IMG/VR virus record: IMGVR_UViG_3300032323_000253
Span: 1-41,583 of that record
Direction: 5' to 3' (one strand)
DNA from: a virus
Length of the DNA: 41,583 nt
The notes beneath the pieces are model-generated. The model made no database searches and was not told where the DNA came from. It saw only the letters and a list, made by a program, of their open reading frames with translations. Of the stretch, positions 6,383-20,679 are shown in pieces (position 1 is the stretch's first letter; the number at the start of each line of letters is the position of its first letter). The position numbers and the translations under genes were made by a program.

Positions 6383-8830
6383 ATGCCTATTCCATTAATA
6401 TCCAGAACGAACACCATTGATGAATGGCGTGTTCAAACCAACTTAGAAGCTAATGCTCTAAACAATTTAGAAACTGGCAACTACGTCAAGTCTAATGGTT
6501 CATTATCATTGACCGCTAACAGTTCTTTGATTATTACAGCCAACGGTACTGCACTGCAAGTATCCAATAGTGCTTTGTTTCAGAGTAACGTTACAGTTGC
6601 TGGTGATATTGCTCTAGGTACGCAAGGTTCAGCAACAGGCAATTTAACGACAGGTGGCATAGTAATAGTTCGTGGACCTGGCAATGCATTACAGGTGGCC
6701 AATAATGCAACTGTTAATACTGATTTACAAGTTACTCGCACAATTTACACAGGTAATGTTTCAGCTAATGGTGATGTTACTGTTGGAGGAAACGAAACAG
6801 TATCCGGTATTTTAAGACTACCTGGTTCAGGTAATGTTCTATATGTCAATACCGGTGTTGCAGTTGTTAAAACATTAAATGCAACCGATGTAAATACAAC
6901 AAATGCAGATATTGGTATAGCTACGATTGATGAAGAGAATGTTACACTTTCAACGATATCTATTGGCACAATTATTAATGGTAATGTTGTCACATTAACA
7001 AGCAATCAAGCTAATATAGCCAACTCAGTTTTGGCCAAAACGACTATTAACAGTGCAAATGTAGATTTAATTAATATATCAACAGCCAATGTCACATCGT
7101 TACTGAATGTTCAAAATGCTATTGTGCGAGTTAGAGGAACTTCTGCTTCAGACGATGCGTTAACAATTAGTCTTGGTAAAACAACTGTTCAAGATGTGGT
7201 GATTCAAGGTAACTTATCTGTTTCTGGAACATACACACAGACAGGTAACTCTAATATTGAAATCGATACAATTACTCTTAATGCGAATACAAACGTTAAT
7301 AAAGATGCATTTGTTATAAATCGTAGAATTTCTGGTAATAATGCAGTCATACAATGGAATGAAGTTGATAAGAATTGGAAAGTTTCTAGAGGTAATACAT
7401 ATTCTGCATTGAATGATGTTATAGATTCGAGTTATGTTCTCTCTGTTGTTACAAGCAATAGCACAACAAATGTAGCTTCAGCATCAGCAGCGAAAGCAGC
7501 CTTTGATACGGCAGTAATTGCTGGTGGTTATGCAAATTCAGCATTTAGAAGTCAAAACACTAGTGGTGTATATGCCAACACAGCTTATCTTCATGCTAAT
7601 GCATCATATGTTTCACAGAATACAACTGGTGTATATGCTAACACTGCATATCTACACGCCAATGCTTCTTATGCAAGTCAGAATACAACTGGTGTATATG
7701 CTAATGCATCATACAATCAGGCTAATACTGCAACCACCAATGCCGCTACGGCTGACCAAAGAGCAGTAACTAGTGGTGTATATGCCAATGCGGCATTTGC
7801 ACACGCCAACACAAGATTTGCTTCTGCTGGTGGTACAATCTCTGGTGCTGTTGTTATTAATGGTAACTTGACAGTTACAGGTACACAGACTTATGTAAAC
7901 TCAACAATTACAATGTTTGCTGACCCAATATTAACACTCAATGCTGACTGGCCAATGGCTTCAGCACCTGTCGAAAATGCAGGTATTGAAGTTCAACGAG
8001 GAACATCTGCAAACACAGTATTGAGATGGAATGAAACAACCGACAGATGGGAATTCACTAATGATGGCACAAACTACGGTGATATCGCTTCAGTAAGTCA
8101 AGTAACTTCATCAGGTTCATATGCTAACTCAGCATATACACAAGCAAATACGGCAACAACTAATGCCGCTACGGCTGACCAAAGAGCAGTGACGAGTGGT
8201 TCTTTTGCTAATAGTGCATACCTACAGGCTAACACAGCAACAACTAATGCGGCTACGGCAGACCAAAGAGCAGTAACTTCTGGTTCATTTGCTAATAGTG
8301 CTTTTGCAAGAGCAAACACTGCGGTATCCGATGCAGCATCAGCCAACTCAAATGCCAATGGTCGTGTATCCAAATCGGGTGATACCATGTCTGGTGCTCT
8401 AGTAGTTAACAGCACAATTACTGCCACAGGTAATATTACCGCACCTTTATTTGTTGGTACAGCAACTCAAGCTCGTTATGCTGACTTGGCAGAAAAATAT
8501 ACAACTGATGATGAATATTCTATCGGCACTGTTGTAGTTGTTAATCCTGAACCAGATTCAGAGGCAACAAAATCAACATCAATCTCTCAATTGGTTTTAG
8601 GAGTTATCTCCGAGAAACCTGCTTATCTAATGAACTCAGAATCCACTGGTCAAGCTATTGCTTTGCGTGGTCGTGTTCCTGTTCGTGTTGTTGGACCTGT
8701 TAAAAAAGGTCAAACATTGGTTTCTGGTCCTGATGGAACAGCCAGTGTTGGTGAAGTTAATCGTTTTGCGATTGCTTTAGAATCTAAAGATACACATGAA
8801 GAAGGGAACATTGAAGTAGTTATTTTATGA
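6383..8830 (+). CDS. Tail fibre protein with heptad repeats and C-terminal YADLAEKY domain
   Basis: This 815-residue protein is a probable tail fibre or tail-tip protein. Residues 1-370 are beta-rich short repeats of the GNLTTGG and VSGTYTQTG type. Residues about 375-480 are seven-residue repeats (ANTAYLH / ANASYVS / QNTTGVY), which recur at about 575-675 with the ADQRAVTSG variant. Between them is a fibre module running from SAGGTISG to ENAGIEVQRG and WEFTNDG, also present in the 1765-residue fibre downstream. The C-terminal 125 residues start with YADLAEKYTTDDEYSIGTVV and end with EEGNIEVVIL; they resemble the cap domain of cyanophage fibres. Its stop overlaps the next start as ATGA, so the modification cluster is translationally coupled to it. 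The host receptor cannot be read from sequence. Confidence 0.85.
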   Translation: MPIPLISRTNTIDEWRVQTNLEANALNNLETGNYVKSNGSLSLTANSSLIITANGTALQVSNSALFQSNVTVAGDIALGTQGSATGNLTTGGIVIVRGPGNALQVANNATVNTDLQVTRTIYTGNVSANGDVTVGGNETVSGILRLPGSGNVLYVNTGVAVVKTLNATDVNTTNADIGIATIDEENVTLSTISIGTIINGNVVTLTSNQANIANSVLAKTTINSANVDLINISTANVTSLLNVQNAIVRVRGTSASDDALTISLGKTTVQDVVIQGNLSVSGTYTQTGNSNIEIDTITLNANTNVNKDAFVINRRISGNNAVIQWNEVDKNWKVSRGNTYSALNDVIDSSYVLSVVTSNSTTNVASASAAKAAFDTAVIAGGYANSAFRSQNTSGVYANTAYLHANASYVSQNTTGVYANTAYLHANASYASQNTTGVYANASYNQANTATTNAATADQRAVTSGVYANAAFAHANTRFASAGGTISGAVVINGNLTVTGTQTYVNSTITMFADPILTLNADWPMASAPVENAGIEVQRGTSANTVLRWNETTDRWEFTNDGTNYGDIASVSQVTSSGSYANSAYTQANTATTNAATADQRAVTSGSFANSAYLQANTATTNAATADQRAVTSGSFANSAFARANTAVSDAASANSNANGRVSKSGDTMSGALVVNSTITATGNITAPLFVGTATQARYADLAEKYTTDDEYSIGTVVVVNPEPDSEATKSTSISQLVLGVISEKPAYLMNSESTGQAIALRGRVPVRVVGPVKKGQTLVSGPDGTASVGEVNRFAIALESKDTHEEGNIEVVIL
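7500..7830 (+). repeat. Coding heptad repeats in fibre 6383-8830
   Basis: In-frame repeats of 21 bases (7 residues), arranged mostly in 63-base units. The consensus heptads are ANxAYxH, ANxxYxS and QNTTGVY. Synonymous sites differ between copies, so the repeat is kept at protein level. Confidence 0.8.
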
Positions 8831-9354
8831 TAAGTATTGGTGAGTTTGAAGAATTTATACATAATGATTTTGTTTATACACAAAAATTAATCTCGGTTAT
8901 CAACGAAGAAGGCAAACAAATATTCGTTGATAACTTGAGTGAACTATATAAGTTTAATGCGTGTACCATTAAATTGGAACACATGGAAATATATAGTAAA
9001 GAAATTTACGATTATTGTAAGTTGCTTTCCAGTAAATATAATAATGATTTGCCGGTGACTTGTCATGTATTCAGAGCCTTTAGGCAATCTTTAAGTTTTG
9101 GCTTGCATACCGACCCGGACGATGTTATACTACGTTGTATTTGGGGTAAAAAAAGAATGAGTGTTAACGGTAAAATTGTTGACCTCTATGCAGACCAAGA
9201 AGTTTTCATTCCCGCAAATACACCACATGAAGCTCTCAATGATGAAGAATCGTTGATGTTAAGCTTTGGTTTAGAAGATTTTTATAAGAATAAAATATAT
9301 AATGAATTGGATGTTCTACCTAAAAACCACGGAAACGTGCAATCTGAATTGTAA
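8827..9354 (+). CDS. Cupin/JmjC-like putative 2-oxoglutarate/Fe(II) dioxygenase
   Basis: This 175-residue protein looks like a small cupin-fold oxygenase. A possible metal triad is visible: H94-x-D96 in FGLHTDPDD and H134 in FIPANTPHEA, separated by a beta segment with IWGKKRM and the DQEVFIPANTPH turn seen in JmjC/cupin_8 proteins. Enzymes of this class hydroxylate protein side chains or small molecules using Fe(II) and 2-oxoglutarate; the substrate here is unknown. It begins in an ATGA overlap with the fibre gene and its last 53 bases overlap the first radical SAM gene, so it opens the modification cluster. It could also be a non-catalytic cupin, because the 2-oxoglutarate-binding residue cannot be assigned with certainty. 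Confidence 0.65.
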   Translation: MISIGEFEEFIHNDFVYTQKLISVINEEGKQIFVDNLSELYKFNACTIKLEHMEIYSKEIYDYCKLLSSKYNNDLPVTCHVFRAFRQSLSFGLHTDPDDVILRCIWGKKRMSVNGKIVDLYADQEVFIPANTPHEALNDEESLMLSFGLEDFYKNKIYNELDVLPKNHGNVQSEL

Positions 9355-10366
9355 ACATTGTTTTACAAACGGCACCAATGGATCTAAGGTATTTTGGAAT
9401 CATTATAAGATAATTGACTGGATTAAAAGATTTGCAGAATATAGAAAAGATTTTCTAAAAGAAGATACTCTACATTGTGAATTTCATGGTGGTGAACCTT
9501 TCTTAGTTCCCACTTTTCAAATGCGACACGTTTGGGAAGATTGTAAAGATTTATTTCCCAATATGACTTGGGGTGCAACAACAAATTTAGTTTATAAGCT
9601 TGATGAAGAACAGATTGATTTAATCAAAGACTGTTTTGACAATCGTATAGGTACAAGTTGGGATCCTAAAATACGATTTGCAAACCAAAAACAAAACGAC
9701 TTATGGTTAAAGAATGTTAAAACTGTTGTTGACCGAGGAATAGATGTTAAGTTGTTCATCAGTGTCACAAAAGATACAATAGAGATAGAACCCATCGAAC
9801 TGTTGAAATGGGTCAAAAGTTTAGGCATAAAAGAACTATCTTTTGAACGACTTACTGGTAACGGAAATGCTAACTTGCATCCTGAAATCTTTCCGACTAA
9901 TATTGAACAAGATGCATGGTTTTTGAAGATGCATCATCAATCAGAAGAACAAGGTTGTAGAGAATGGTTTGATAATGAATTTTTGGAAACTATTTACAGT
10001 AAGTTTGAAACTGGATTTCTAAAGAGTGGAACATTTTGTCGAGATTGTGAAGAAAAGTTGTTTACGGTCAATGCCGATGGTACTATCTCTGGATGTCCAA
10101 ACTCCGCACCAGAATTTCAGTTCGGAAACATTGATGATGATATAGAAACACTTATAAATAGTCCTATAAGAATAGAAAATATCGCTTGCGAGAGGTCTAG
10201 GGACCCAAGATGTTATTCATGCGATGTTTTTGAGTATTGTGGTGGAGATTGCCACCAACTAGGGTGGCAAGACGATGTTTGTGGTGCACCTAAAAGTTTA
10301 ATGAGATTTATAAAGAATAATCAAAAAAGAAAAGTTTGGATAATGAAAAATGGCAACATTAAATAA
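9302..10366 (+). CDS. Radical SAM protein with SPASM domain (1 of 5)
   Basis: This 354-residue protein is a radical SAM enzyme. The [4Fe-4S]/SAM motif is C13-x3-C17-x2-C20 (ETCNLNCKHCF), followed by GGEP at 63-66. The C-terminal third is a full SPASM domain: C249-x10-G260-x4-C265, then C304-x2-C307-x5-C313-x3-C317 and C327, enough for auxiliary Fe-S clusters. SPASM enzymes usually modify ribosomal peptides or proteins through thioether, C-C or similar bonds. The gene lies directly upstream of, and overlaps by 17 bases, the CHxS-tail protein, which makes that protein its best candidate substrate. The start is uncertain: ATG 9302 or ATG 9311 (MFYLKTTETCN); neither has a clear ribosome binding site. 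Family call is firm; the reaction is not known. Confidence 0.92.
   Translation: MNWMFYLKTTETCNLNCKHCFTNGTNGSKVFWNHYKIIDWIKRFAEYRKDFLKEDTLHCEFHGGEPFLVPTFQMRHVWEDCKDLFPNMTWGATTNLVYKLDEEQIDLIKDCFDNRIGTSWDPKIRFANQKQNDLWLKNVKTVVDRGIDVKLFISVTKDTIEIEPIELLKWVKSLGIKELSFERLTGNGNANLHPEIFPTNIEQDAWFLKMHHQSEEQGCREWFDNEFLETIYSKFETGFLKSGTFCRDCEEKLFTVNADGTISGCPNSAPEFQFGNIDDDIETLINSPIRIENIACERSRDPRCYSCDVFEYCGGDCHQLGWQDDVCGAPKSLMRFIKNNQKRKVWIMKNGNIK
10153..10160 (+). promoter_or_regulatory. Possible internal late promoter box TATAAATA
   Basis: A perfect T4 late -10 sequence lies inside the SPASM gene, 189 bases before the CHxS-tail gene. It may add expression of that gene, but a chance match in AT-rich coding DNA is quite possible. 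Confidence 0.25.
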
Positions 10367-10922
10367 TCCCATAAATCCGCAAAATATCGTTGATAGATTT
10401 GCAGACTATGTAGTATCCACGGCCAATGCAGGAATTGTTTGGGGTACCGATGTTTCTCCTTTTGTTGAATTTAACACAGCTGAATTTGGTGGAACAACAT
10501 CAGGTAAGGCAATAGGAATTTCTGGTTCAAATATCAATGCAGTAGGTGATACAATTACTGCAACTAATATTTACAACACATTGGTTAATGAAACAGCTAC
10601 ATTTAGTAATATCAGAAATCTAAGAGCATTGTTGTTCGTTGAAGGTGGTGGTGGAAACACAGGTTCTAGGCCTACTCCTGGATATGTTTATGATAATACA
10701 CAAGTGGCATATTTGAATTCTTCATATTTACAAAGTGTTGGTTCACCTAGTGCTTCAGACGTATCTTCTGGTAATTCGGTAACTAGTTCGGGTTTAGAAA
10801 CATTCTTTGTGAATTTACAGTCTGCCTATAACACAACAAGAGCAGCAACTGCAACAATACAAGTTAATGTATGTCACGCTTCTTGTCATTCATCATGTCA
10901 CAGTTCAAGAGGAAGAAGATAA
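10350..10922 (+). CDS. Putative RiPP-like precursor or modified virion protein with (CHxS)3-RGRR tail
   Basis: This 190-residue protein is not one I can name. Residues 1-170 look like a folded or leader-like part: an N-terminal NPQNIVDRFADYVVSTANAG helix, a GGTTSGKAIGISG segment, and a later helix with LETFFVNLQSAYNTTR. The C-terminus is striking: C175-HAS, C179-HSS, C183-HSS, then R187-G-R-R. These are the only cysteines in the protein, and all sit in a period-four CHxS array. The next gene starts inside its stop codon, and five radical SAM and four oxygenase-like genes surround it. This is the layout expected of a RiPP precursor with a C-terminal core, although its length and location also fit a minor tail protein whose tip is modified. 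HxS-type precursors also carry His-x-Ser repeats, but no relation is shown here. Confidence 0.6.
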   Translation: MATLNNPINPQNIVDRFADYVVSTANAGIVWGTDVSPFVEFNTAEFGGTTSGKAIGISGSNINAVGDTITATNIYNTLVNETATFSNIRNLRALLFVEGGGGNTGSRPTPGYVYDNTQVAYLNSSYLQSVGSPSASDVSSGNSVTSSGLETFFVNLQSAYNTTRAATATIQVNVCHASCHSSCHSSRGRR

Positions 10923-11635
10923 TGAATATTATTGAAACGGCAGCTCCCATCTCAATTGAAAATCTTAAAAAATATTTTACTGATAAGACTATTGTTTATT
11001 TGGTTGATTATGAAAACAGCATACTAAAAGGTGCTAAACTTTTGACATATCTAAGTAATCTTGATTTGCCATGTGATATCAAATTAACAAATACAGAAGA
11101 AGATTATTCTCTAGTAAAAGATTATATGACTTCGCCGATGTTATCCAATATCAGAAGTTTAGAATTCAAAGTAATCGAAATTCTAATGGAATATAAAGGT
11201 TTGTTGGTTGATAAAACAAATCAAGAATTTATAACCGATAACCAAGAATTGTTGTCTAAGTGGGCATCCAAATTAGATAGTTTAACAATTTATAATATGT
11301 ATATGATAAACTCTGCCGAGTTCAAACAATTTGCCGAATCTCACCCACATGATGATACGGATGAATTGATTGGTGTGAATTTCATTAGTCTTTTGAAACA
11401 TCCAGAATTTTATAGTTTTTACTCTAAGATTCCTAAAGAAAATCTTAAATTTTATACGAAATATTTTAATGAGTATATGTTCAAAGGAAAAAGTTTATTT
11501 TCATTTTGGGCTAACGAAAACAATCCATTATTTTTATTAACATATGGTATATCAGAAGGCATTGTGACTGGTAAAGAATATGTTGAAGCAAAAAAAGAAA
11601 CCGCACAAGGAACATTAAATGTTACACCTGTTTAA
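10922..11635 (+). CDS. Unknown protein, possible partner of the radical SAM pathway
   Basis: This 237-residue protein is unrecognised. I chose ATG 10922, which shares its A with the TAA of the CHxS-tail gene; an in-frame extension to 10871 would overlap the conserved cysteine tail and is less likely. The protein is mainly helical and acidic, with TIVYLVDYENSILKGAKLL near the N-terminus and a SHPHDDTDELIG loop near residue 145. It has one cysteine and no obvious metal site or membrane segment. Because it directly follows the presumed substrate gene and precedes another unknown protein, a role in substrate recognition or delivery is a reasonable guess only. Confidence 0.6.
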   Translation: MNIIETAAPISIENLKKYFTDKTIVYLVDYENSILKGAKLLTYLSNLDLPCDIKLTNTEEDYSLVKDYMTSPMLSNIRSLEFKVIEILMEYKGLLVDKTNQEFITDNQELLSKWASKLDSLTIYNMYMINSAEFKQFAESHPHDDTDELIGVNFISLLKHPEFYSFYSKIPKENLKFYTKYFNEYMFKGKSLFSFWANENNPLFLLTYGISEGIVTGKEYVEAKKETAQGTLNVTPV

Positions 11636-12743
11636 TAAAACATACTTAGAATTTGATGATAATGTGGATATCAATGTGGACCGTGTTGTCATATCTTCAC
11701 GATATGGTACACCTGTGTTGGCAGCTTTAGATAAAGTTGCCTATGGAGAATTGATATCTTACGGTAAAACTTTAGATGATGTTTTAGGTGAAGGTGATTT
11801 TATCGATTTTATAGAATCTGTAACCTCACATGGCAACACATCAAATAAAAAAGTTATTATTTTTTGCGATAAACAAAATTACAATCAATTTGTTTCATTG
11901 TGGTTCAAACTAATATTACCTAATTTAGATTCAACTTCATTTCAGAGTTTAATTGATTTAACACTCTATAAAGAAAGAATCACTAAGAACACACAGCTAT
12001 CAGCTTCAGGTCCAATGAACATATCTTATTTGGTTGGTGCCTTTGGTGATATTGTTGAAGTTTGGGAAGGTTTACCAAATTTTACAACTACACAAAAGAA
12101 TAAATTTAAGACTTTGAATTTGAACTTATCATATGAGTTTTTATTGTCCTCATACTTTGCTGGCTCAACAAGTTATACAGAAAAATTATTAAAGACGGCA
12201 CATTTGTTTTTAGAAAGATGGTTCAAAGAAGCACTTACTGATAACCGTCAGATGATTTTGATTAACTTAACCAATCATAAAATTTTATCAGATTTGGGTG
12301 TTGATTATAGTTTAGTGGATATCACAAAAGAAAATCCATTAGATGGTATTGAGCAATTCAAATACTACGCTGATGATGAAATTTGGGATAGAGTATCTGA
12401 TGCAAGTAGTGGCACATATGGTATCTGTAATCTTAGAGGTTTGTCCGATGAAAAATTACAAGGTCTGAAGAACACACTAATTGGTGTTTATAGTAATGCT
12501 GAAGGCATGGACACAAACAAAACTTGTTTCTCTGCTTTTGATTGGATTGATGTAGCTGGTCGAGATTCTATGACACAAGAAGAACTAGATTCTATTTTAG
12601 ACTTCTTAGTATCCGACCCATTTGATACTTGTTTAGTTCCTAGATTTGATTTCCAAAATGTAAACTTCAGTTTAATGTTACACATATTAAAATTAAAGAA
12701 AGACGGCAACAATTCTGAGTTGAATAAATTCAAACTTTTATAA
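11619..12743 (+). CDS. Unknown protein in modification cluster
   Basis: This 374-residue protein is unrecognised. The N-terminal 100 residues look like an alternating alpha/beta domain (VVISSRYGTPVLAALDK, GKTLDDVLGEGDF, KKVIIFCDKQNYNQFV). The middle is helical, and the C-terminal part contains ICNLRGLSDEKLQGLKNT and ends LNKFKLL. No radical SAM or oxygenase motif is present. It starts 17 bases before the end of the upstream gene, with AAGG about eight bases ahead of the ATG, and its TAA shares an A with the ATG of the next radical SAM gene. This tight coupling places it in the same pathway. I considered a DUF1835-like N-terminus but could not support it. Confidence 0.6.
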   Translation: MLHLFNKTYLEFDDNVDINVDRVVISSRYGTPVLAALDKVAYGELISYGKTLDDVLGEGDFIDFIESVTSHGNTSNKKVIIFCDKQNYNQFVSLWFKLILPNLDSTSFQSLIDLTLYKERITKNTQLSASGPMNISYLVGAFGDIVEVWEGLPNFTTTQKNKFKTLNLNLSYEFLLSSYFAGSTSYTEKLLKTAHLFLERWFKEALTDNRQMILINLTNHKILSDLGVDYSLVDITKENPLDGIEQFKYYADDEIWDRVSDASSGTYGICNLRGLSDEKLQGLKNTLIGVYSNAEGMDTNKTCFSAFDWIDVAGRDSMTQEELDSILDFLVSDPFDTCLVPRFDFQNVNFSLMLHILKLKKDGNNSELNKFKLL

Positions 12744-13816
12744 TGTTACGAGATATATTATTAGAACGCAAAAGGGACAAAGAACAAGAATACACACTAC
12801 ACCTATTTGAGTATTGTAATCTTCGTTGTTCCTTTTGTTGGCAAGACCACGAAAACATAGTTGGCCTTGACACAATCACTGAGAAATTAATTCCCATAGA
12901 GAAGTTTCTGCAAACAGAAACAAGAGATTCTGTTGTATTCAATGCAATGGGTGGTGAAATCTTTGCACCAGAAATATTCAATCAAAATTTACTCCAACAA
13001 TACAAAGACTTAACTTTAGGTATCAAAAATCTAGGGTTAAAATATAATAAGAAAGTAAAAATCAATTGGGTAACAAATCTAGTTACTGACAAATATAACG
13101 AAATTGATGAGTTGATGAATTACTCAAAAGAAGTGGGTGTTCATTCTGAAATTGTTACATCATACGACCCTAGAGGCCGTTTCAATAGAAATGATTTGGA
13201 ACAATTCAAAAAGAGTATGGAATACTTTGGTGATAGAGTAACTTGTATCAGTATGTTACTGAATGGTCCTAATATAGACTATATTCTACAAGACAAAGAT
13301 GCATACTTCAAAAAATTATATAATGAAGGCAAATACATCTATTTTGATTACTATATGCCAGATTCTTCAGCTGAATATCAATATCCCACAGCTCAAGATA
13401 TGTTGAATGTGTTTAAGCATTTCATTGACAAATATCCGAAAGTTCATCCAATTGCCGATTGGATTGAAAATGAAAAGAATTACTTATCATGCAGAACAAG
13501 TAAGTTAGTATTGGCTGATGGTACCATGTGTAATTGTGGCAACTTGGTACAAGAAGAAAAATCTATAAAATTCTACAAATCTAAAATAGAATCTATGGAC
13601 AACTCTGGAATAGAGGAAAGTTTTCTGAATAAGTATGATTGTATTTCATGTGAATATTTTGACAGATGTGGTTTGGGTTGCTTTATGCAACACGATTATA
13701 AATTCAGGGAAGAACTAGATGAGTGTGTCTACAAACTTACGCACCGATATATTGACGATGTTCGCTTATCAAGAAGAGCCGAACCCGTTGAATGTCAAAC
13801 TACTCCCCAACATTGA
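12743..13816 (+). CDS. Radical SAM protein with SPASM domain (2 of 5)
   Basis: This 357-residue radical SAM protein has C25-x3-C29-x2-C32 (EYCNLRCSFCW), preceded by a 20-residue charged N-terminal extension, and a GGE motif at 70-72. The SPASM domain is complete in pattern: C250-x9-G260-x4-C265, then C300-x2-C303-x5-C309-x3-C313 and C328. It therefore should hold auxiliary clusters and act on a peptide or protein. It shares only the family motifs with the first SPASM protein, so the two probably install different modifications or act at different sites. The gene starts in a TAATG overlap with the unknown 374-residue protein, and its 3' end overlaps the next gene by up to 98 bases. Confidence 0.92.
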   Translation: MLRDILLERKRDKEQEYTLHLFEYCNLRCSFCWQDHENIVGLDTITEKLIPIEKFLQTETRDSVVFNAMGGEIFAPEIFNQNLLQQYKDLTLGIKNLGLKYNKKVKINWVTNLVTDKYNEIDELMNYSKEVGVHSEIVTSYDPRGRFNRNDLEQFKKSMEYFGDRVTCISMLLNGPNIDYILQDKDAYFKKLYNEGKYIYFDYYMPDSSAEYQYPTAQDMLNVFKHFIDKYPKVHPIADWIENEKNYLSCRTSKLVLADGTMCNCGNLVQEEKSIKFYKSKIESMDNSGIEESFLNKYDCISCEYFDRCGLGCFMQHDYKFREELDECVYKLTHRYIDDVRLSRRAEPVECQTTPQH

Positions 13817-14288
13817 TGTAAAAAAAGATGATTTACCAATTGCATATCCTTATGTTCCTAGGATATGCAAAGAACAAGGCTATATGTTTATTTGGTATGG
13901 AACTCCAGAATCGGATCCTGATTTGGTTGAAGATTGTTTGCGAGTTAAGGATGAACCACAGTGGATTAGTTGTGAAGAATCGTGGAAGATTGAAACTGGC
14001 ATCGCATTAATTTACCCATACGAAGATGAGATTATTATAGGAGCTGTTAAAACTCCAGGGTATATGAAGAAAAGAACTAATGTGGAAATTAGAAATGTTT
14101 TAAGACATATGTGGAAAGATATAATACATATGTTTGGAGATAAAAAAATTATTTGTCCTAGTGGTTCTTATTTTGAATATTTGCATATGTCAATGAGCCA
14201 AATAAGGATACCACATGAAGCTTATCATTGGAAGATTATGAAACAAAATGGATTCAAACGTGACGGTCATTATTGGATTAGAAACTAA
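13719..14288 (+). CDS. Unknown protein, possibly GNAT-like acyltransferase
   Basis: This 189-residue protein has no firm family. The region from about residue 85 to the end, with GIALIYPYEDEIIIGAV, a long helix and then HWKIMKQNGFKRDGHYWIR, recalls GNAT-type acyltransferases of phages, where a late helix is followed by a GF-x-R-x-G-x-YW strand. The acetyl-CoA-binding R/Q-x-x-G-x-G/A loop is not evident, so this is weak. The start is ambiguous: ATG 13719 has AGGGA eight bases upstream but overlaps the radical SAM gene by 98 bases; ATG 13758 would shorten the overlap to 59 bases. If it is an acyltransferase, it could cap or acylate the modified product. Confidence 0.5.
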   Translation: MSVSTNLRTDILTMFAYQEEPNPLNVKLLPNIDVKKDDLPIAYPYVPRICKEQGYMFIWYGTPESDPDLVEDCLRVKDEPQWISCEESWKIETGIALIYPYEDEIIIGAVKTPGYMKKRTNVEIRNVLRHMWKDIIHMFGDKKIICPSGSYFEYLHMSMSQIRIPHEAYHWKIMKQNGFKRDGHYWIRN

Positions 14289-14876
14289 ATGCAACAATCA
14301 TTTATACTTTGGCCAACAAGAATAGAAGTAATTGATAATTTTATTGAAGATGTTAATATCATCAATCAATTAAAAGAAGAATCAATTATTAATACTGTAA
14401 TTAGTGGGCAAGACACCAGTAATATGTCTTGGGCTCAATCTGAACTTATGAGTATGGTTGATAGGTCTGTTATGACTTATTGTGTTGAAAGTAATATCGA
14501 TTACAATTCATTAGCCTTAAATGATATGCAAAAGGGTTGTTTGTATCCATATAGTGAAAGTATGGTCGGTAATCATCTATATGAACCGCACCACGACATT
14601 GCTGAAAATGGATTTATAACAGCCATCTACTATATCAATAGTGATTGGACAGAAGAAACTTGGGTTGGTGGTGAACTCTGTATCTATAAACAATTAACAT
14701 TTAGTGATTATCCAGAAAATTCAATCAACATTTTACCAAAATCAAATCGTCTAATTATATTTCCTGGTTATTTGGTGCATCGTGTCAAACCATATTTTGG
14801 TAAAAATCCAAGAACATCTATGGTAATGGGTTGGAGAGTTAATGAACCAACCAATAATAATGTTATGATTGTGTAA
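14289..14876 (+). CDS. 2-oxoglutarate/Fe(II) oxygenase-like protein, LWPT type (1 of 3)
   Basis: This 195-residue protein fits the prolyl-hydroxylase-like 2OG-Fe(II) oxygenase fold. It starts with the LWPTRIEVID segment shared by two other cluster genes. The metal triad is H101-x-D103 (EPHHDIAENG) and H164 (FPGYLVHRV), with R175 in NPRTSM as the likely 2-oxoglutarate contact. The strand WVGGELCIY between them is typical. Members hydroxylate peptide residues or small molecules; the target is unknown here. It begins immediately after the stop of the preceding gene and ends in a TAATG overlap with the third radical SAM gene, so it is translated as part of the cluster. Confidence 0.85.
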   Translation: MQQSFILWPTRIEVIDNFIEDVNIINQLKEESIINTVISGQDTSNMSWAQSELMSMVDRSVMTYCVESNIDYNSLALNDMQKGCLYPYSESMVGNHLYEPHHDIAENGFITAIYYINSDWTEETWVGGELCIYKQLTFSDYPENSINILPKSNRLIIFPGYLVHRVKPYFGKNPRTSMVMGWRVNEPTNNNVMIV

Positions 14877-15949
14877 TGGAACTAATCATTAAACCTACAG
14901 AAAAGTGTAACTTCAAATGCACATTCTGTTCATCAACACACATCACTGACGATAAAACGGCAGAATTAAGTCACGACCACATATTCAGATTTTTAGATAG
15001 ATATCCCGAAACAAACACTATCATTGTTAATGGTGGTGACCCATTGATGATGGAACCGGATTATTACTGCAAGATTATAGACTATCTTGACAGTAAGAAT
15101 ATGTCAACTACGATTTCATTTACAACCAATCTGTGGCCTTTTTATAAAAATCCTAATAAATGGATTGATTTGTTTAACCATGAAAGATTAGGCATCACCA
15201 CATCATTTCAATATGGTGGCGGTAGATTGAAAGGTGATTTGACTGAATTTTCAGAAGAAGATTTTTGGAATGTATCGAATAAGATGTTAGAGTTGGTGGG
15301 ATATAGACCAGATTTTATTTCAGTTATAACAGAACAAAATGTTGATAGAGCTATTGATAATGTCTTACTAGCCAAAGAGATGGGTGTTGAGTGTAAGTTA
15401 AATTATGCTTTTAGTTCAGGACCACCAGTTAAGTTTCGTGGTATCACTATGGGTCAACAAGGCAAACCATATGTGTTGGCTGATATCTATGAAATCTATG
15501 TTGAGATTTGGAAGATGGGTCTGACTGATTGGGAATACAATACTAAACAGATGGTCAAAAGGCTTAGTGGAAAATCAACATCTTGTCCACAAAATAGAAA
15601 TTGCGATTCTGGCATCAGAACATTACAACCATCAGGAGATTATTATTCATGTGGTGCCTTTGGTGATGATAAACAATATCCTATAGATTTTGAAAAAGAG
15701 ATGAGTGGTGATAAGATATTTCCACTTAAATTTCAACCTGAACTTAATTCATTGAAACAATCGTGTTTTACTTGCCCTATGTTTGATATTTGTAACGGAT
15801 GTAAAAAGACAATTAAAGATTTGAAAGACCACGACATGGTTGAAACACATTGTAAGAAGATGAAAACATTGGCAATAGATATAATAGAGGCTAACGGATT
15901 AACTGGAATTTTACAACCAACCGAGTATGAAGATGAGAGAAAATATTGA
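14876..15949 (+). CDS. Radical SAM protein with SPASM-like domain (3 of 5)
   Basis: This 357-residue protein has C11-x3-C15-x2-C18 (KCNFKCTFCSS) very near its N-terminus and GGDP at 53-56 in the place of GGEP. The C-terminal region carries C243-x10-G254-x4-C259 and then C297-x2-C300-x5-C306-x2-C309 with C326, a SPASM pattern with one spacing shortened by a residue. An extra C237 precedes it. It lies between two LWPT oxygenase regions and shares its start with the stop of the first oxygenase (TAATG). The role is presumed peptide modification; which bond is formed cannot be told. Confidence 0.9.
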   Translation: MELIIKPTEKCNFKCTFCSSTHITDDKTAELSHDHIFRFLDRYPETNTIIVNGGDPLMMEPDYYCKIIDYLDSKNMSTTISFTTNLWPFYKNPNKWIDLFNHERLGITTSFQYGGGRLKGDLTEFSEEDFWNVSNKMLELVGYRPDFISVITEQNVDRAIDNVLLAKEMGVECKLNYAFSSGPPVKFRGITMGQQGKPYVLADIYEIYVEIWKMGLTDWEYNTKQMVKRLSGKSTSCPQNRNCDSGIRTLQPSGDYYSCGAFGDDKQYPIDFEKEMSGDKIFPLKFQPELNSLKQSCFTCPMFDICNGCKKTIKDLKDHDMVETHCKKMKTLAIDIIEANGLTGILQPTEYEDERKY

Positions 15950-16997
15950 AAAACTAATAGACTTCACGTTAGAAGTTACTAATGGATGCCAATACAATTG
16001 CACTGGTTGTTCTGTAGACAAAGAAGGTAATTCTTGGCCTAGTGATTCCGATTTCGGTAGAATAGAATATTTGGTTGACGACTTGGCCAAAAATGATTTC
16101 AAACCTATGAATTTGGCCATAGGTCCAACTGATATTATGACCAGTGTTAATCGTGACCAGATACTTGGTAGTGATATGGTGAAAAATTTAGCAAAGAAGT
16201 TTCTAAAGACATCCATTAATTGTGCCTTCCTTGACCCGTTTGATGAGAATTATATCAATATGGGTAAGAAATTAAATTGGTTATTGGAAGGCGGCATAGT
16301 TAAATTTGTCATACCTTTTGAAGCCTTTCACATAGACAATAAAGAATATATTAATCGTATTCGTAGAAGAAGAGATTTGGTATTAAGTCAAATGCCAAAT
16401 GTAAAACACCACAAAACATATTTGGTGATAAATTATGAAACTTCTTCTGTTTATGATAAAGAAAACAACACAAATATTACTGAAGATTTGATTCTTAAAG
16501 TTTACGAATCTGAATTAATAGGAGATTTCAATACTGATATTGTTTTACCACAAACTAGAGCCAATCTAAGAGAGCCTGAAGTTTCTTTTGCATTTCTAAA
16601 AGCCACACATAAATTAAAAACAACAATGGCTGCCGCTAGAAAAAAATACGGATATACAGTAGAGATTGCCGAAACAATGACACATGAAGGTAAAGATTGG
16701 GACATATTCTATAAAGCTGGTAAATTGTATATGACACCATTTTTATTAGAAGGTTTGGCTTGTTTTGATGAAAAGTTTGAAGTTACAACTGATTGGACTT
16801 TTGATGGTTTATATTCTTATTATGTAGACGGTTTGGTTTCGCAGATTGATTGGGCTTTGAATAATGAAGATTGTTCATCATGCCAGTTTGTTGGTATGTG
16901 TGCTGAAAGAGGCATACACACACTAATGCAGGTTGTGGGAACAAACAAGTGTATAAGTCCGGCAAAGAATGTGGAAAACATGGTGATTTGGAATTGA
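15927..16997 (+). CDS. Divergent radical SAM protein (4 of 5), reduced C-terminal cluster
   Basis: This 356-residue protein has C21-x3-C25-x2-C28 (NGCQYNCTGCSVD), so it should bind the SAM cluster. The usual GGE is not recognisable; NLAIGPTDIM occupies that position. The C-terminus has only C316-x2-C319-x5-C325 and C342, without the preceding C-x-G-x-C pair of full SPASM domains, so it probably holds one auxiliary cluster at most. It may be a distinct subfamily, or a partner that works with another radical SAM protein. The start is ATG 15927 or ATG 15933, both inside the end of the upstream gene. Confidence 0.85.
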   Translation: MKMRENIEKLIDFTLEVTNGCQYNCTGCSVDKEGNSWPSDSDFGRIEYLVDDLAKNDFKPMNLAIGPTDIMTSVNRDQILGSDMVKNLAKKFLKTSINCAFLDPFDENYINMGKKLNWLLEGGIVKFVIPFEAFHIDNKEYINRIRRRRDLVLSQMPNVKHHKTYLVINYETSSVYDKENNTNITEDLILKVYESELIGDFNTDIVLPQTRANLREPEVSFAFLKATHKLKTTMAAARKKYGYTVEIAETMTHEGKDWDIFYKAGKLYMTPFLLEGLACFDEKFEVTTDWTFDGLYSYYVDGLVSQIDWALNNEDCSSCQFVGMCAERGIHTLMQVVGTNKCISPAKNVENMVIWN

Positions 16998-17941
16998 AGA
17001 ATATAACATTATCGGTAAACCCATGGTACTACTGCAACTTCAGATGTGACTTTTGTTATCTAACTGAAAGTCAATTGGAAGACACCAAGCTGTTACCGAT
17101 TGAAATTTTAGAAGAAAGACTGATAGAGATTTCAAGTTATGCCAAAATTGACATGGTAGACTTGTATGGTGGGGAAGTAGGAATATTGCCGTATGAGTAT
17201 ATTTCGGCAATGAAAGAGATGTTTCATACTTACGGCATAGATGGTATCAACTTAATAACTAATTTATCTATGGTCAATGACATTGTTACCGATGAAGATT
17301 TTTATATCTCTGTTAGTTATGATTTTGAAGCCAGAGAGAAGCATGAACAGGTGTGGAGAAATATGTTGTTACTTAAACGACCATTCTCTGTTCTTATGTT
17401 GGCCAGTCCAAAGTTGATTCAAAAAGATGTCAATGAAATGATACAGGCCTTCAATCTAATACCTAATGTTAGTAGTGTGGAGATTAAACCATATTCACCC
17501 AATCAGGCCAATCAGTTAAATATCAATTACCGTGAATATGAAGAATTCGTAAAAAAATGGATTGCAAGTCCAATACAGAAGAATTTTTCATTTACCAATG
17601 AACAACAAATTGAACTGAGTATCTCTAAAAGAAGAAATAGTTTTTCGGATGACCACATCTATATAACACCATCAGGTAAATATGGTGTATTGGAATTTGA
17701 TTTGAATGACAATGAATTCTTTTTAGAGTATGAAACTTTTGATGAATATTTGAACTGGTGTGAACGAGAAAAGAAAAGAGTTTTAAAAAATAAATTCTGT
17801 TCCGAATGTAAGTATTTTGGCAATTGTCTATCCGAACATCTAAGAGAGGTTAAGAATTTAGACAATAGCTGTAATGGATTTAGACTATTATTGAATTGGT
17901 ACGATGAAAGACTGGCAGATAAGACAAGACCTGTATCATAG
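16949..17941 (+). CDS. Radical SAM protein (5 of 5), reduced C-terminal cluster
   Basis: This protein of up to 330 residues has C29-x3-C33-x2-C36 (YYCNFRCDFCYL) and YGGE at 73-76, both well conserved. The C-terminal cysteines are C284-x2-C287-x5-C293 and C308, the same reduced pattern as in the preceding radical SAM protein, suggesting the two are related. There is no ATG start: GTG 16949 has GGGA eight bases upstream; TTG 16994 would form a TTGA overlap with the upstream stop and give a shorter N-terminus (LKNITLSVNPWYYCN). I list the longer form. The gene ends 38 bases inside the next reading frame. Confidence 0.88.
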   Translation: MYKSGKECGKHGDLELKNITLSVNPWYYCNFRCDFCYLTESQLEDTKLLPIEILEERLIEISSYAKIDMVDLYGGEVGILPYEYISAMKEMFHTYGIDGINLITNLSMVNDIVTDEDFYISVSYDFEAREKHEQVWRNMLLLKRPFSVLMLASPKLIQKDVNEMIQAFNLIPNVSSVEIKPYSPNQANQLNINYREYEEFVKKWIASPIQKNFSFTNEQQIELSISKRRNSFSDDHIYITPSGKYGVLEFDLNDNEFFLEYETFDEYLNWCEREKKRVLKNKFCSECKYFGNCLSEHLREVKNLDNSCNGFRLLLNWYDERLADKTRPVS

Positions 17942-18308
17942 ATTGAATACAGAACATTCGGATGATTTAAGTTTACATCACATTGAAATAACAGACAATG
18001 TGGTTGAAGATGCTATTAGATATTTCAATGAAAGAGATATAGGTTGGATATACCCATCTAAAAGTTACATGGTTGGTATATGTTATGCTAAATGGTTATC
18101 TGAACAATTTGGTGGAGAACCAATTGATTATTTGAATGAAGAAGATTTACTATATGGAAATGACCCATACTTTGTAACTTACGATAAAGACAAAGATACT
18201 TATGATGAAATACTAAGTAAAATTGGTGGTTGGAATTTCAAATCTGATGGTATGGTTTCTGATGTTAAAGAATATTTTAATGAGGAGTTTATGATTGAAA
18301 ACTTTTAA
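17904..18308 (+). CDS. Small unknown acidic protein
   Basis: This 134-residue protein is unrecognised. It is rich in Asp, Glu and Tyr. The central part, EDAIRYFNERDIGWIYPSKS, followed by YAKWLSEQFGGEP, reads as two helices with a turn, and the C-terminus, VKEYFNEEF, is another helix. There are no conserved Cys/His metal motifs. The ATG at 17904 lies inside the end of the fifth radical SAM gene, and its last codons contain the ribosome binding site and TTG start of the next oxygenase, so translation of the two is linked. A helper or substrate role is possible but unsupported. Confidence 0.55.
   Translation: MKDWQIRQDLYHRLNTEHSDDLSLHHIEITDNVVEDAIRYFNERDIGWIYPSKSYMVGICYAKWLSEQFGGEPIDYLNEEDLLYGNDPYFVTYDKDKDTYDEILSKIGGWNFKSDGMVSDVKEYFNEEFMIENF
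18283..18297 (+). promoter_or_regulatory. Ribosome binding site fixing a TTG start
   Basis: AGGAG at 18283-18287 lies seven bases before TTG 18295. The nearby ATG 18291 is in the frame of the upstream gene and ends within five codons, so TTG is the start of the second LWPT oxygenase. Confidence 0.75.
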
Positions 18309-18807
18309 TTTATGGCCAACCAGAATTGTTATTGACCAGTTTGACGAATCTGATACTATGGAAATATTCAACAATTATTTGATTGGTAATGATTCAGATT
18401 GGGATACATTGATACCTGAAAATTTACAACAAAAACTTTTGAATGTTATAGAAGATAATTATTCTGGTAAATATGAAATAATTGATGGATGGATAAGAAA
18501 ACTTGAAACAGATAGTCATAATGAATTTGAGTTACATTCGGATTCTCATTATGGAGGTCATTTAATTTCTGTTATACAATTGATGGGTGATGAGAATTCT
18601 GGTGGCAATTTAATTATATACGACCCAGCTTGGAGGAATCCACAATTTATGTCAGATAAAAAAACAGAGATGTCAAACAGATTTGAAATACCATTTAATC
18701 CAACAACAGTTATTATTTTTCCTAGTAATGTTTGGCACAAAGTTTCGGAGTATACTGGTAAAACAAACCGATTGACCATGAATCTTATTATTAAGAGGAT
18801 ATTATGA
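18295..18807 (+). CDS. 2-oxoglutarate/Fe(II) oxygenase-like protein, LWPT type (2 of 3)
   Basis: This 170-residue protein starts at TTG with MKTFNLWPTRIVIDQF, which parallels the N-terminus of the other LWPT proteins. The metal triad is H81-x-D83 (FELHSDSHYGG) and H148 (FPSNVWHKV), with R159 in KTNRLTMN as likely 2-oxoglutarate ligand. GGNLIIYDPAWRNP is the usual strand-turn segment. Length fits a minimal oxygenase domain. It is set between the unknown 134-residue protein and the third oxygenase, with an ATGA overlap at its end. Peptide or protein hydroxylation is a plausible role from family and context; the target is unknown. Confidence 0.85.
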   Translation: MKTFNLWPTRIVIDQFDESDTMEIFNNYLIGNDSDWDTLIPENLQQKLLNVIEDNYSGKYEIIDGWIRKLETDSHNEFELHSDSHYGGHLISVIQLMGDENSGGNLIIYDPAWRNPQFMSDKKTEMSNRFEIPFNPTTVIIFPSNVWHKVSEYTGKTNRLTMNLIIKRIL

Positions 18808-19373
18808 GAATAGAAAAACTTTGGCCTACCACATTGATGGTACATGAGATTGAAGATGAAAAATTAATGTCTGAATCTTTGGCTTTTCTAATGTCTAACC
18901 GAACAGAACTAGTTAATAGAGAGAATAAGAAAAGTTGTATATTAGAAAACGAACCACTAAAACAATTAAAAGAAAAAGTATTCTTACCGGCGTTTGATAA
19001 ATACCTACAAGAAACTTGTAATAAAAAACTTGATGATTGGAGTTACAATCTCAACGGATGGTTGGTGTCTTATGGTGAAGGTCAAAGTTTGAATTATCAC
19101 AATCATAGAGGTTCACAACTAAGTTCGGTACTTTATATGATGGCTGATTCTGAAGATGATGGGGGAGATGTATTATTCACCGACCCAAGACAAAACGCCA
19201 ATCGTGGATATGACCTACATTTTAGTAGTTGGTTTGAATCGTTTAGACTGAAACCTAAGTGTGGACAGTTAATTGTTTTTCCTAGTTTTCTATATCATTA
19301 TGTGGAAACATACAGAAGTAACATAAGAATGGCCTTGCCCGTAGATTGTTTCTTACAAAACAAACATAAATAA
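18804..19373 (+). CDS. 2-oxoglutarate/Fe(II) oxygenase-like protein, LWPT type (3 of 3), HxH variant
   Basis: This 189-residue protein begins MRIEKLWPTTLMVHEIED, again the LWPT start. The core reads SLNYHNHRGSQLSSVLYM, then GGDVLFTDPRQNANRG, then GQLIVFPSFLYHYVETYRS. It resembles the putative 2OG-Fe(II) oxygenase family with the H-x-H-x-x-S-x-LSxVxYM motif (TIGR02466/2OG-FeII_Oxy_5). Metal candidates are H99, H101 and H165, with R171 or R175 near the end; an H-x-H replaces the H-x-D of the other two. It is the last gene of the modification cluster and is followed four bases later by the S74-capped fibre. Confidence 0.83.
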   Translation: MRIEKLWPTTLMVHEIEDEKLMSESLAFLMSNRTELVNRENKKSCILENEPLKQLKEKVFLPAFDKYLQETCNKKLDDWSYNLNGWLVSYGEGQSLNYHNHRGSQLSSVLYMMADSEDDGGDVLFTDPRQNANRGYDLHFSSWFESFRLKPKCGQLIVFPSFLYHYVETYRSNIRMALPVDCFLQNKHK

Positions 19374-19377
19374 GTAA

Positions 19378-20679
19378 ATGTCCTCATTATTAGATAGATT
19401 AAATTCCGGAACAACAGTTGATGTCGTATTAGTTTATGATACGGTTGATGCTTCTTTCATAAAAGCTAATTCTGCTTTTAGTAGTCAAAACACTACAGGC
19501 GTATATGCTAATTCAGCCTACATTCATGCTAACGCAGCTTATTTTTTGGCAAATACTGTTGCTGGAAATAACACTCCAACTTTAGCCTTTATTACTGCAA
19601 ACTCCAGCTTCATACAAGCTAACAATGCATATATTCATGCCAACTCGGCTTATATTAGTCAGAATACTACAGGTCTATATGCCAATACGGCTTATAGACA
19701 TTCCAACAGTTCTTATAATCAAGCCAACACCGCTACTACTAATGCGGCTACGGCTGACCAGAGAGCAGTAACTTCTGGTTCATTTGCTAATAGTGCTTTT
19801 GCAAGAGCAAATACCGCAAACACAAATGCAGCTACAGCAGACCAACGAGCGGTAACTTCTGGTGTATATGCTAATGCCGCTTACATTCAAGCAAATACCG
19901 CAAACACAAATGCAGCTACAGCAGACCAACGAGCGGTAACTTCTGGTGTATATGCTAATAGTGCTTTTGCTGCTGCAAATACTGCTCTTTCCAGTGTTTC
20001 TGGTACGTATGCAAACTCTGCTTTTTCTGGTGCGAATACCGCAAACGTGAACGCAACAAGTGCTGGTGTATATGCTAATGCGGCCTATGCACAGGCAAAC
20101 ACAGCAACAATCAATGCGGCCAGTGCCAGTTCATATGCAAATTCATCTTATATTCATGCCAACGCTTCTTACACCTTCGCAAACACCAGAGCTGCCAGTT
20201 CAAATTTAACTATTGCTTGGACACACGCCAATTCGGCATTTAATACTGCAAACACAAAATTTAATTCATCTGGTGGAACAATAAGTGGTTCTGTAAACAT
20301 TTCTTCTGGTGGTTTAGCTGTCACAGGAAACTTGGCAGTTACAGGTGCGATTACTGCCACAGGAGATATTACTGCGTTTTTCTCGGATGATAGACTTAAA
20401 GATAGAATTAGTAACATAGAAAATGCATTAGAAAAAATAGAACAATTGAATGGTTTTTATTATTTACCAAATGATGTTGCGGTCAGTCTAGGATATAATA
20501 GAACAAAAGAAGTTGGAGTATCTGCACAAGAAGTTCAGACTGTTCAACCAGAGGCAGTTACTAAGGCACCAATATCGGATGAGTATTTGGCTGTGAAATA
20601 TGACAGATTGATACCACTAATGATTGAAGCCATAAAAGAACTCAAAAGAGAAATTGAAACCTTAAAAATGCCTAAATAA
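19378..20679 (+). CDS. Tail fibre with heptad repeats and C-terminal S74 intramolecular chaperone
   Basis: This 433-residue fibre has a short N-terminus (MSSLLDRLNSGTTVDV), then residues about 25-300 of seven-residue repeats (ANSAYIS, QNTTGLY, ANTATTN, AATADQR, AVTSGVY). These form a likely trimeric fibrous shaft. A short beta segment, GGTISGSVNISSGG, leads to the S74 endosialidase-type chaperone domain: S336-DDRLK-K341 begins a 98-residue end domain with GVSAQEVQTVQPEAV and YDRLIPLMIEAIKEL. In this family the domain helps trimer folding and then cleaves itself off at the Ser, with the Lys needed; both residues are present. The mature fibre would thus end near residue 335. It directly follows the modification cluster. 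Confidence 0.9.
   Translation: MSSLLDRLNSGTTVDVVLVYDTVDASFIKANSAFSSQNTTGVYANSAYIHANAAYFLANTVAGNNTPTLAFITANSSFIQANNAYIHANSAYISQNTTGLYANTAYRHSNSSYNQANTATTNAATADQRAVTSGSFANSAFARANTANTNAATADQRAVTSGVYANAAYIQANTANTNAATADQRAVTSGVYANSAFAAANTALSSVSGTYANSAFSGANTANVNATSAGVYANAAYAQANTATINAASASSYANSSYIHANASYTFANTRAASSNLTIAWTHANSAFNTANTKFNSSGGTISGSVNISSGGLAVTGNLAVTGAITATGDITAFFSDDRLKDRISNIENALEKIEQLNGFYYLPNDVAVSLGYNRTKEVGVSAQEVQTVQPEAVTKAPISDEYLAVKYDRLIPLMIEAIKELKREIETLKMPK

Follow-up and report, generated by a model that had tools for sequence, protein, structure and literature searches.

A radical SAM and iron-oxygenase module coupled to a CHxS-tailed protein in phage fibre regions and in Bdellovibrionota

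A run of abutting genes in a T4-like phage

The IMG/VR virus record IMGVR_UViG_3300032323_000253, a 41.6-kb stretch of T4-like phage DNA analysed here at its full length (the window), carries at 8827-19373 a run of genes encoding radical S-adenosylmethionine (SAM) proteins, oxygenases, and a small protein that ends in a repeated Cys-His-x-Ser (CHxS) tail. A neck protein, gp15, and a large protein of the baseplate region frame the window. The run lies inside the stretch that separates the gene for this large protein from the neck genes, a stretch whose position matches that of the host recognition cluster described for pelagimyophages (PMC7029224). By the list of open reading frames (ORFs), 14 genes on the + strand fall within 8827-19373, all with overlapping or abutting ends; the first-pass annotation of this DNA had counted fifteen, a number reached only by adding the S74 fibre gene at 19378. 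The products are, in order, a cupin/JmjC-like protein, the first radical SAM protein (rSAM1), the CHxS-tail protein, DUF-A, DUF-B, rSAM2, an accessory protein, 2-oxoglutarate (2OG) oxygenase 1, rSAM3, rSAM4, rSAM5, a small conserved protein, and 2OG oxygenases 2 and 3.

The CHxS-tail protein (190 amino acids, 10350-10922) lies, as had been noted from the letters alone, right after the first radical SAM gene: its gene overlaps the end of rSAM1 (9302-10366) and its product terminates in CHASCHSSCHSSRGRR, encoded at 10872-10919. We propose rSAM1, a radical SAM/SPASM protein, as the maturase of this tail and the 190-residue protein as its substrate, the latter on the basis of an AlphaFold2 model and of tail conservation across homologues.

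Coupling of the tail gene and its radical SAM neighbours

When loci were collected by the tail, a radical SAM gene was found within range in 107 of 112 loci with enough flank, and the gene for DUF-A (phrog_20767; 10871-11635 in the window), which we regard as an obligate partner, followed the tail gene in 72 of 75 testable loci. The order cupin, rSAM1, tail protein, DUF-A, DUF-B was common across loci; the conserved unit comprises a fibre gene, the cupin gene, rSAM1, the tail protein, and DUF-A. The conserved partner DUF-B (11619-12743) had homologues in 129 loci, and occurs in Bdellovibrionota as well. Because these forward loci had been picked by the tail itself, a reverse scan was run with rSAM1 only. 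Among its best 80 loci, near-duplicate contigs included, 76 carried the tail plus stop 475 to 1613 bp downstream, and in the other four the contig ends less than 260 bp past rSAM1; the tail was thus present in every testable locus (76/76). The two genes were adjacent in nearly every locus of this arrangement (class 1), mostly less than 50 bp apart. Class-2 loci encode two tail proteins of about 130 amino acids each beside an rSAM4-like neighbour, and the corresponding class-2 scan, likewise of the best 80 loci and overlapping the class-1 set, recovered the tail in 46 of 46. The proposal that the CHxS gene and the radical SAM genes co-occur as one module was therefore upheld: the contrary case, a tail gene without radical SAM genes, failed in the 76 and 46 testable loci, all of which show the dedicated maturase beside its precursor that characterizes clusters for ribosomally synthesized and post-translationally modified peptides (RiPPs).

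The coupling extends to cultured phages. rSAM1, rSAM2, rSAM3, rSAM5, and DUF-A each matched the same seven of 50,697 phage records, which are jumbo phages of Agrobacterium, Sinorhizobium, Burkholderia, and Pseudomonas, and the gene after rSAM1 bears the tail in all five cultured-phage loci read. Locus L048 is taken here to be phage RSF1. Given that Atu_ph07 is related to T4 (PMC6102473) and the RSF1 group to phiKZ (PMC5468394), the module spans phage lineages.

Some loci depart from these layouts. A single phage represented by one 151-kb contig (L084 and L100) carries both classes: two class-2 tail proteins as a pair and, in addition, a unit of the class-1 cupin-rSAM1 type. Three further loci (L025, L037, and L054) have tail proteins in odd settings, with several divergent radical SAM genes, two copies of DUF-A, or a body that falls outside the main family, and may be further classes.

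A near-invariant tail on a diverged body

The C-terminal motif CHxSCHxSCHxSRGRR, closed by a stop codon, is near-invariant across more than 110 viral contigs. Translation of all pattern matches showed that nearly all viral ones end exactly in CHxSCHxSCHxSRxRR plus stop and close a frame of 115 to 350 amino acids; most matches on bacterial contigs had no such exact tail and stop. Most of the 88 matches on genome contigs were chance matches in GC-rich DNA or CH-repeat sequence, which frame and stop eliminated. Although the search pattern left positions 4, 8, 12, and 14 free, Ser4 (91%), Ser8 (79%), Ser12 (90%), and Gly14 (90%) were conserved across 145 unique proteins, which argues that the tail is not a product of chance.

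The carriers are 190 to 300 amino acids long in the loci read, and their bodies fall to 24 to 30% identity against invariant Cys, His, and Arg residues in the tail. A BLAST-type search of the phage collection with the tail-protein sequence returned no match, though relatives are present there, because the body is too diverged for BLAST; synteny or a profile alone retrieves them. BLAST groups had hinted that the tail might be a tag swapped between unrelated proteins, an idea weakened by a body-only profile that reaches both Atu_ph07 (1e-21) and the Bdellovibrionota copies (1.5e-16).

In the AlphaFold2 model of the tail protein (mean predicted local distance difference test score, pLDDT, 88.5) the body is confident and the last 16 residues, at about 54, are flexible; DUF-A was modelled at a pLDDT of 92.4. 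Neither model matched a solved fold in the PDB. In a viral structure library the tail-protein model matched its relatives and three large proteins of Myoviridae sp. ctijX18, and nothing else; these proteins, of 504 to 660 amino acids (BFVD A0A8S5USJ8, A0A8S5USJ7, and A0A8S5USV2), contain the tail-protein fold within them. By sequence models, the tail protein scored 13.8 bits (E 0.044) against a cut-off of 45 for the FibroRumin Cys-rich RiPP family (TIGR04135), which only 3 of 80 homologues matched at all, and it had no match to the Hxs models.

Linkage to fibre genes and a virion clue

Directly upstream of the run, on the same strand, lies the gene for an 815-amino-acid fibre-like protein (6383-8830, +) with tail fibre protein matches (phrog_19602, phrog_13481, and phrog_32540) and a C-terminal 'YADLAEKY' domain in its last ~126 residues. 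A profile of the last 130 amino acids of this product detected a same-strand ORF ending mostly 455 to 605 bp before rSAM1 in 71 of 76 rSAM1 loci, which places a fibre-type domain one gene upstream, ahead of the cupin gene. On the other flank, at 19378-20679 (+), the window encodes a fibre protein with an S74 intramolecular-chaperone domain (PF13884, 44.2 bits; tail-fibre PHROGs). The earlier placement of the module in the fibre region is borne out.

For phage Atu_ph07, a virion-protein cluster defined by electrospray ionization tandem mass spectrometry was given as 'CDS 170-215' (PMC6102473). Coding sequence (CDS) 170, or gp170, is the CHxS-tail protein of that phage, and the numbering is concordant at gp198 and gp204. 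By this one indirect proteomic clue, that gp170 bounds a virion gene cluster, the tail protein may be located on the virion.

Chromosomal copies in Bdellovibrionota

Across 84,980 species genomes, non-viral-looking contigs with real tails were confined to Bdellovibrionota, a phylum that includes predators. The pattern search gave five positives among 241 genomes of this phylum, in which the trait is therefore sporadic, and rSAM1 relatives were present in 11 of 12 genomes examined. The bacterial clusters contain the tail gene, homologues of DUF-A and DUF-B, most radical SAM types, and the small protein, and their rSAM3 is 52 to 62% identical to that of the window. Their flanks are chromosomal, with genes for Ada, 3-hydroxyacyl-CoA dehydrogenase, a DksA-like protein, and ketoacyl-ACP synthase III; on long contigs such housekeeping genes ruled out misbinned phage contigs for the loci read. 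The module is therefore not purely a phage device.

In three of the genomes (L302, L304, and L305) the next genes encode an S74 protein and a protein of ~190 amino acids. The N-terminus of the S74 protein passes the pilin methylation Pfam cut-off in L302 and L305, and the ~190-amino-acid protein weakly resembles the phage fibre C-terminus (E 2e-4 in two genomes and 0.014 in the third, among 186 ORFs). S74 matches also occur in L307, bringing to four the Bdellovibrionota genomes with S74 beside the module. The rSAM1 tree contains at least four changes between phage and bacterium and gives no direction of transfer. In Bdellovibrio bacteriovorus, S74 fibres are prey-recognition and invasion proteins for which no radical SAM component was reported (PMC10769870); the position of the module beside such predator-type genes points to a shared tool against bacterial envelopes.

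Enzyme families of the module

All five predicted radical SAM genes (9302-10366, 12743-13816, 14876-15949, 15927-16997, and 16949-17941) encode the CxxxCxxC motif, as the first-pass annotation had read them. The superfamily model PF04055 (cut-off 29.5 bits) was passed by rSAM1 (34.4) and rSAM3 (35.6); rSAM5 (26.8), rSAM2 (25.9), and rSAM4 (16.2) scored below it. Only rSAM1 passed the SPASM model TIGR04085 (34.9 bits against a cut-off of 27; rSAM3 22.9, rSAM2 18.4). Both rSAM1 and rSAM2 have the exact SPASM cysteine pattern CX2CX5CX3C, and rSAM3 has most of it, in line with the three full or near-full patterns reported before. Across 17 diverse homologues of rSAM1, the CxxxCxxC, HGGEP, and SPASM cysteines are invariant.

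The best NCBIfam scores of rSAM1 were among peptide maturases. All equivalog scores lay far under their cut-offs: 43.6 versus 340 bits for the ranthipeptide maturase PapB (NF047865), 31.6 versus 370 for FxsB, 29.3 versus 445 for YhhB, 25.7 versus 425 for AmcB, and 28.1 versus 450 for XyeB among the cyclophane maturases, and, for the His-Xaa-Ser equivalogs, 26.5 versus 370 for HxsB (TIGR03978) and 29.4 versus 267.9 for HxsC (TIGR03977). The sulfatase maturase model gave 38.0 versus 349 bits. The type of bond formed can therefore not be read from family membership. No radical SAM protein of the window passed a metabolic equivalog cut-off, and Pfam/NCBIfam-type model scans found no match to peptidase, leader-cleavage, or export families among the window genes.

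Of the remaining radical SAM proteins, rSAM2 (12743-13816) and rSAM5 (16949-17941) match phrog_1802 (4e-53 and 1.5e-41, respectively), and rSAM3 (14876-15949) is the most conserved enzyme of the module, at 59 to 62% identity across cultured phages. The divergent rSAM4 (15927-16997) matches phrog_31457, and its relatives take the place of rSAM1 beside the tail gene in class-2 loci. Four oxygenase-like genes had been proposed. Three pass the 27-bit Pfam cut-off for 2OG-Fe(II) oxygenases: oxygenase 1 (14289-14876; PF13640, 42.2 bits), oxygenase 2 (18295-18807, with a TTG start; PF13759, 28.6 bits; phrog_81), and oxygenase 3 (18804-19373; PF13759, 49.8 bits). The fourth, the cupin/JmjC-like gene (8827-9354; phrog_8014, 3.5e-25), has the HxD...H pattern yet stays below the curated cut-offs for Cupin_2 (1.5e-4; 21.8 versus 27.2 bits) and JmjC_2 (4.7e-4; 20.1 versus 22 bits), and its product may be a non-haem iron oxygenase.

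The small conserved protein (17904-18308; phrog_20737, 2.8e-53) recurs in Bdellovibrionota clusters L302, L305, L306, and L308. The accessory gene (13719-14288) is found in only part of the loci, ~48 in number, always in constant position and with no Pfam match or other family assignment. Some versions of the module, phage-like and bacterial, include a radical SAM protein of ~570 amino acids (L304:16572-18308, L305:12569-14278, and L126:3324-5030), which in L304, where it was checked, carries a B12-binding domain and suggests a cobalamin-dependent methylation step in those versions. In Burkholderia phages, the module includes two genes annotated as dihydrofolate reductase, which have an rSAM2-type gene on one side and an rSAM3-type gene on the other (L003:20406-21583).

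Proposed function and alternatives

Taken together, one-to-one gene coupling, tail invariance, a folded body with a flexible end, linkage to fibre genes, and sharing with Bdellovibrionota chromosomes describe a fibre-region module. We think it probable that rSAM1 and its helpers modify the tail of a protein that stays whole, belongs to the virion or another surface, is linked to the fibre, and serves attachment or entry. rSAM1 would act on the flexible CHxSCHxSCHxSRGRR terminus of the product of the next gene; DUF-A and DUF-B are putative partner proteins, and the other radical SAM proteins and iron-dependent oxygenases are candidate tailoring enzymes. The C-H-x-S unit offers a thiol for thioether formation, and its H-x-S triad resembles the aromatic-x-x rings of cyclophane maturases. 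Likely products would be cross-links of Cys or His side chains, either thioethers or rings closed between His and Ser within the three H-x-S units, and hydroxylation may accompany them. Because no protease or exporter family was found among the window genes, the protein would stay whole with its tail cross-linked in place, and carrier and adjacent fibre would together serve to attach to bacterial cells or to enter them. The substrate, the bonds, the virion location, and the role in entry are inferred.

Several observations weigh against this proposal. The body of the tail protein has no recognisable fold, the Atu_ph07 clue is a cluster boundary as quoted in the text of that paper, several enzymes vary from locus to locus, and near-duplicate contigs mean that locus counts are not independent events. 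Moreover, a set of five radical SAM proteins plus three or four oxygenases looks large for a tail of 16 residues, and part of it may therefore act elsewhere, for example on the fibre.

In a different arrangement, the tail would be unmodified and bind metal, and the enzymes would have another target, perhaps the adjoining fibre or a molecule on the host surface. The three Cys and three His residues are potential ligands for Zn or Fe, linkage to the module is as tight for the fibre as for the tail gene, and oxygenases are often found near fibre genes in marine T4-like phages. We nevertheless regard this arrangement as unlikely, given the adjacency of rSAM1 to the tail gene in nearly every class-1 locus and the pairing of a different radical SAM protein with the same tail in class 2, such that every maturase variant goes with the tail and not with a fibre type. 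A related possibility, that the CHxS protein or DUF-A provides a scaffold or a recognition surface and the tail merely docks enzymes acting on the fibre, could draw on the invariant RxRR end as a docking signal and on the lack of a known function for DUF-A; repeated redox-active Cys-His-Ser units far exceed the needs of a docking motif, however, and class 2 has two tail proteins per enzyme set, which makes docking very unlikely.

The tail might instead be cleaved and then released or injected as a modified peptide, either a RiPP-like toxin or a host-takeover effector. A SPASM maturase beside a protein with a repeated Cys/His/Ser C-terminus is the usual layout of radical SAM RiPP clusters, and occurrence in Bdellovibrionota fits a weapon. 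Typical RiPP pathways, however, have a short precursor, a leader removed by a protease, and an exported product. In the module, which has no peptidase, ABC exporter, or immunity family, the carrier is a folded protein of 190 to 300 amino acids with, in the window, a confidently predicted fold, the constant neighbours are fibre genes, and the virion clue from Atu_ph07 concerns the full-length protein. The released-peptide version of the first-pass annotation thus fared poorly, and we judge it improbable. Still harder to sustain is a set of auxiliary metabolic genes boosting host Fe-S, haem, or cofactor metabolism; phage radical SAM genes have been assigned to metabolism in print (PMC5332604, PMC7150976, PMC9301287, and PMC2853527), but the genes here are strictly coupled to a fibre gene and to a tail protein that is not an enzyme, and none of the radical SAM proteins passes a metabolic cut-off, which leaves this explanation with very little probability.

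A broader form of tail modification on a whole protein is more tentative. The module could represent a widespread, unrecognised virion-maturation chemistry, in which T4-like and phiKZ-related phages and some Bdellovibrionota equip a surface protein associated with the fibre with a tip that is cross-linked or loaded with metal, through a multi-enzyme radical SAM and iron-oxygenase line, as a device against Gram-negative cells exchanged between virus and bacterium. Radical SAM genes are plentiful in phages and are routinely classed as auxiliary metabolic genes, and for one large group of them there is now a gene-by-gene link to a specific, substrate-like protein and to tail fibres. With this coupling, the purpose of the enzymes can be put to a direct test by mass spectrometry of cultured phages. 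A modified tail, if borne out, would add a further level to the maturation of phage virions and would be new radical SAM chemistry, and structures of the tail protein and DUF-A, neither with a solved-fold match, would be informative in themselves.

Relation to known systems

The nearest parallels are the RiPP pairs of SPASM maturase and substrate, including ranthipeptides (PapB), dynobactin (DynA), cyclophanes (FxsB, YhhB, and XyeB), and sactipeptides, in which a SPASM radical SAM gene likewise adjoins a protein with a repeated Cys/His/Ser-containing C-terminus; the best NCBIfam matches of rSAM1 are among peptide maturases. Unlike those pairs, the module has equivalog scores far below cut-off, a folded substrate of 190 to 300 amino acids, no protease or exporter, and a place in the fibre region of a lytic phage with five radical SAM proteins and several oxygenases. 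The His-Xaa-Ser system (HxsA/HxsB/HxsC) shares repeated H-x-S units and at least two radical SAM proteins, whereas the units of the module are all C-H-x-S and fixed at the extreme C-terminus, the scores for HxsB and HxsC fall far below their cut-offs, and the tail protein matches no Hxs model. Radical SAM maturation of whole proteins is established for QhpD, acting on the quinohaemoprotein subunit, and for the anaerobic sulfatase maturase. In these cases, as proposed for the module, the modified protein stays a protein; the module differs in being viral, fibre-linked, and without sequence membership in either family.

Fibres of the MAT type in Bdellovibrio bacteriovorus are also S74 tail-fibre-type proteins, and S74 genes adjoin the CHxS clusters in four Bdellovibrionota genomes; unlike the MAT fibres, which were described with no radical SAM or CHxS component (PMC10769870), two of the module neighbours bear a pilin-type N-terminus. 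In the radical SAM cassettes of pelagimyophages and of Campylobacter phages CP220 and CPt10 (PMC7029224 and PMC2853527), T4-like phages similarly carry several radical SAM genes together in a cassette that can be swapped; those papers propose no function or substrate beyond metabolism. CP220 and CPt10 have 11 to 12 radical SAM genes in swappable clusters (PMC2853527); no Campylobacter phage matched rSAM1, rSAM2, rSAM3, or rSAM5 of the window at the limits used, and their clusters may be a separate system.

Published accounts of phage radical SAM genes invoke metabolism or propose no function (PMC7029224, PMC5332604, PMC7150976, PMC9301287, and PMC2853527), and open-licence literature yielded nothing on the tail motif or on SPASM proteins in connection with the virion. 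The setting in a lytic-phage fibre region, the sharing with Bdellovibrionota, the folded carrier, and the multi-enzyme line are not described in the literature searched; the enzyme-substrate logic that joins them is of a known kind.

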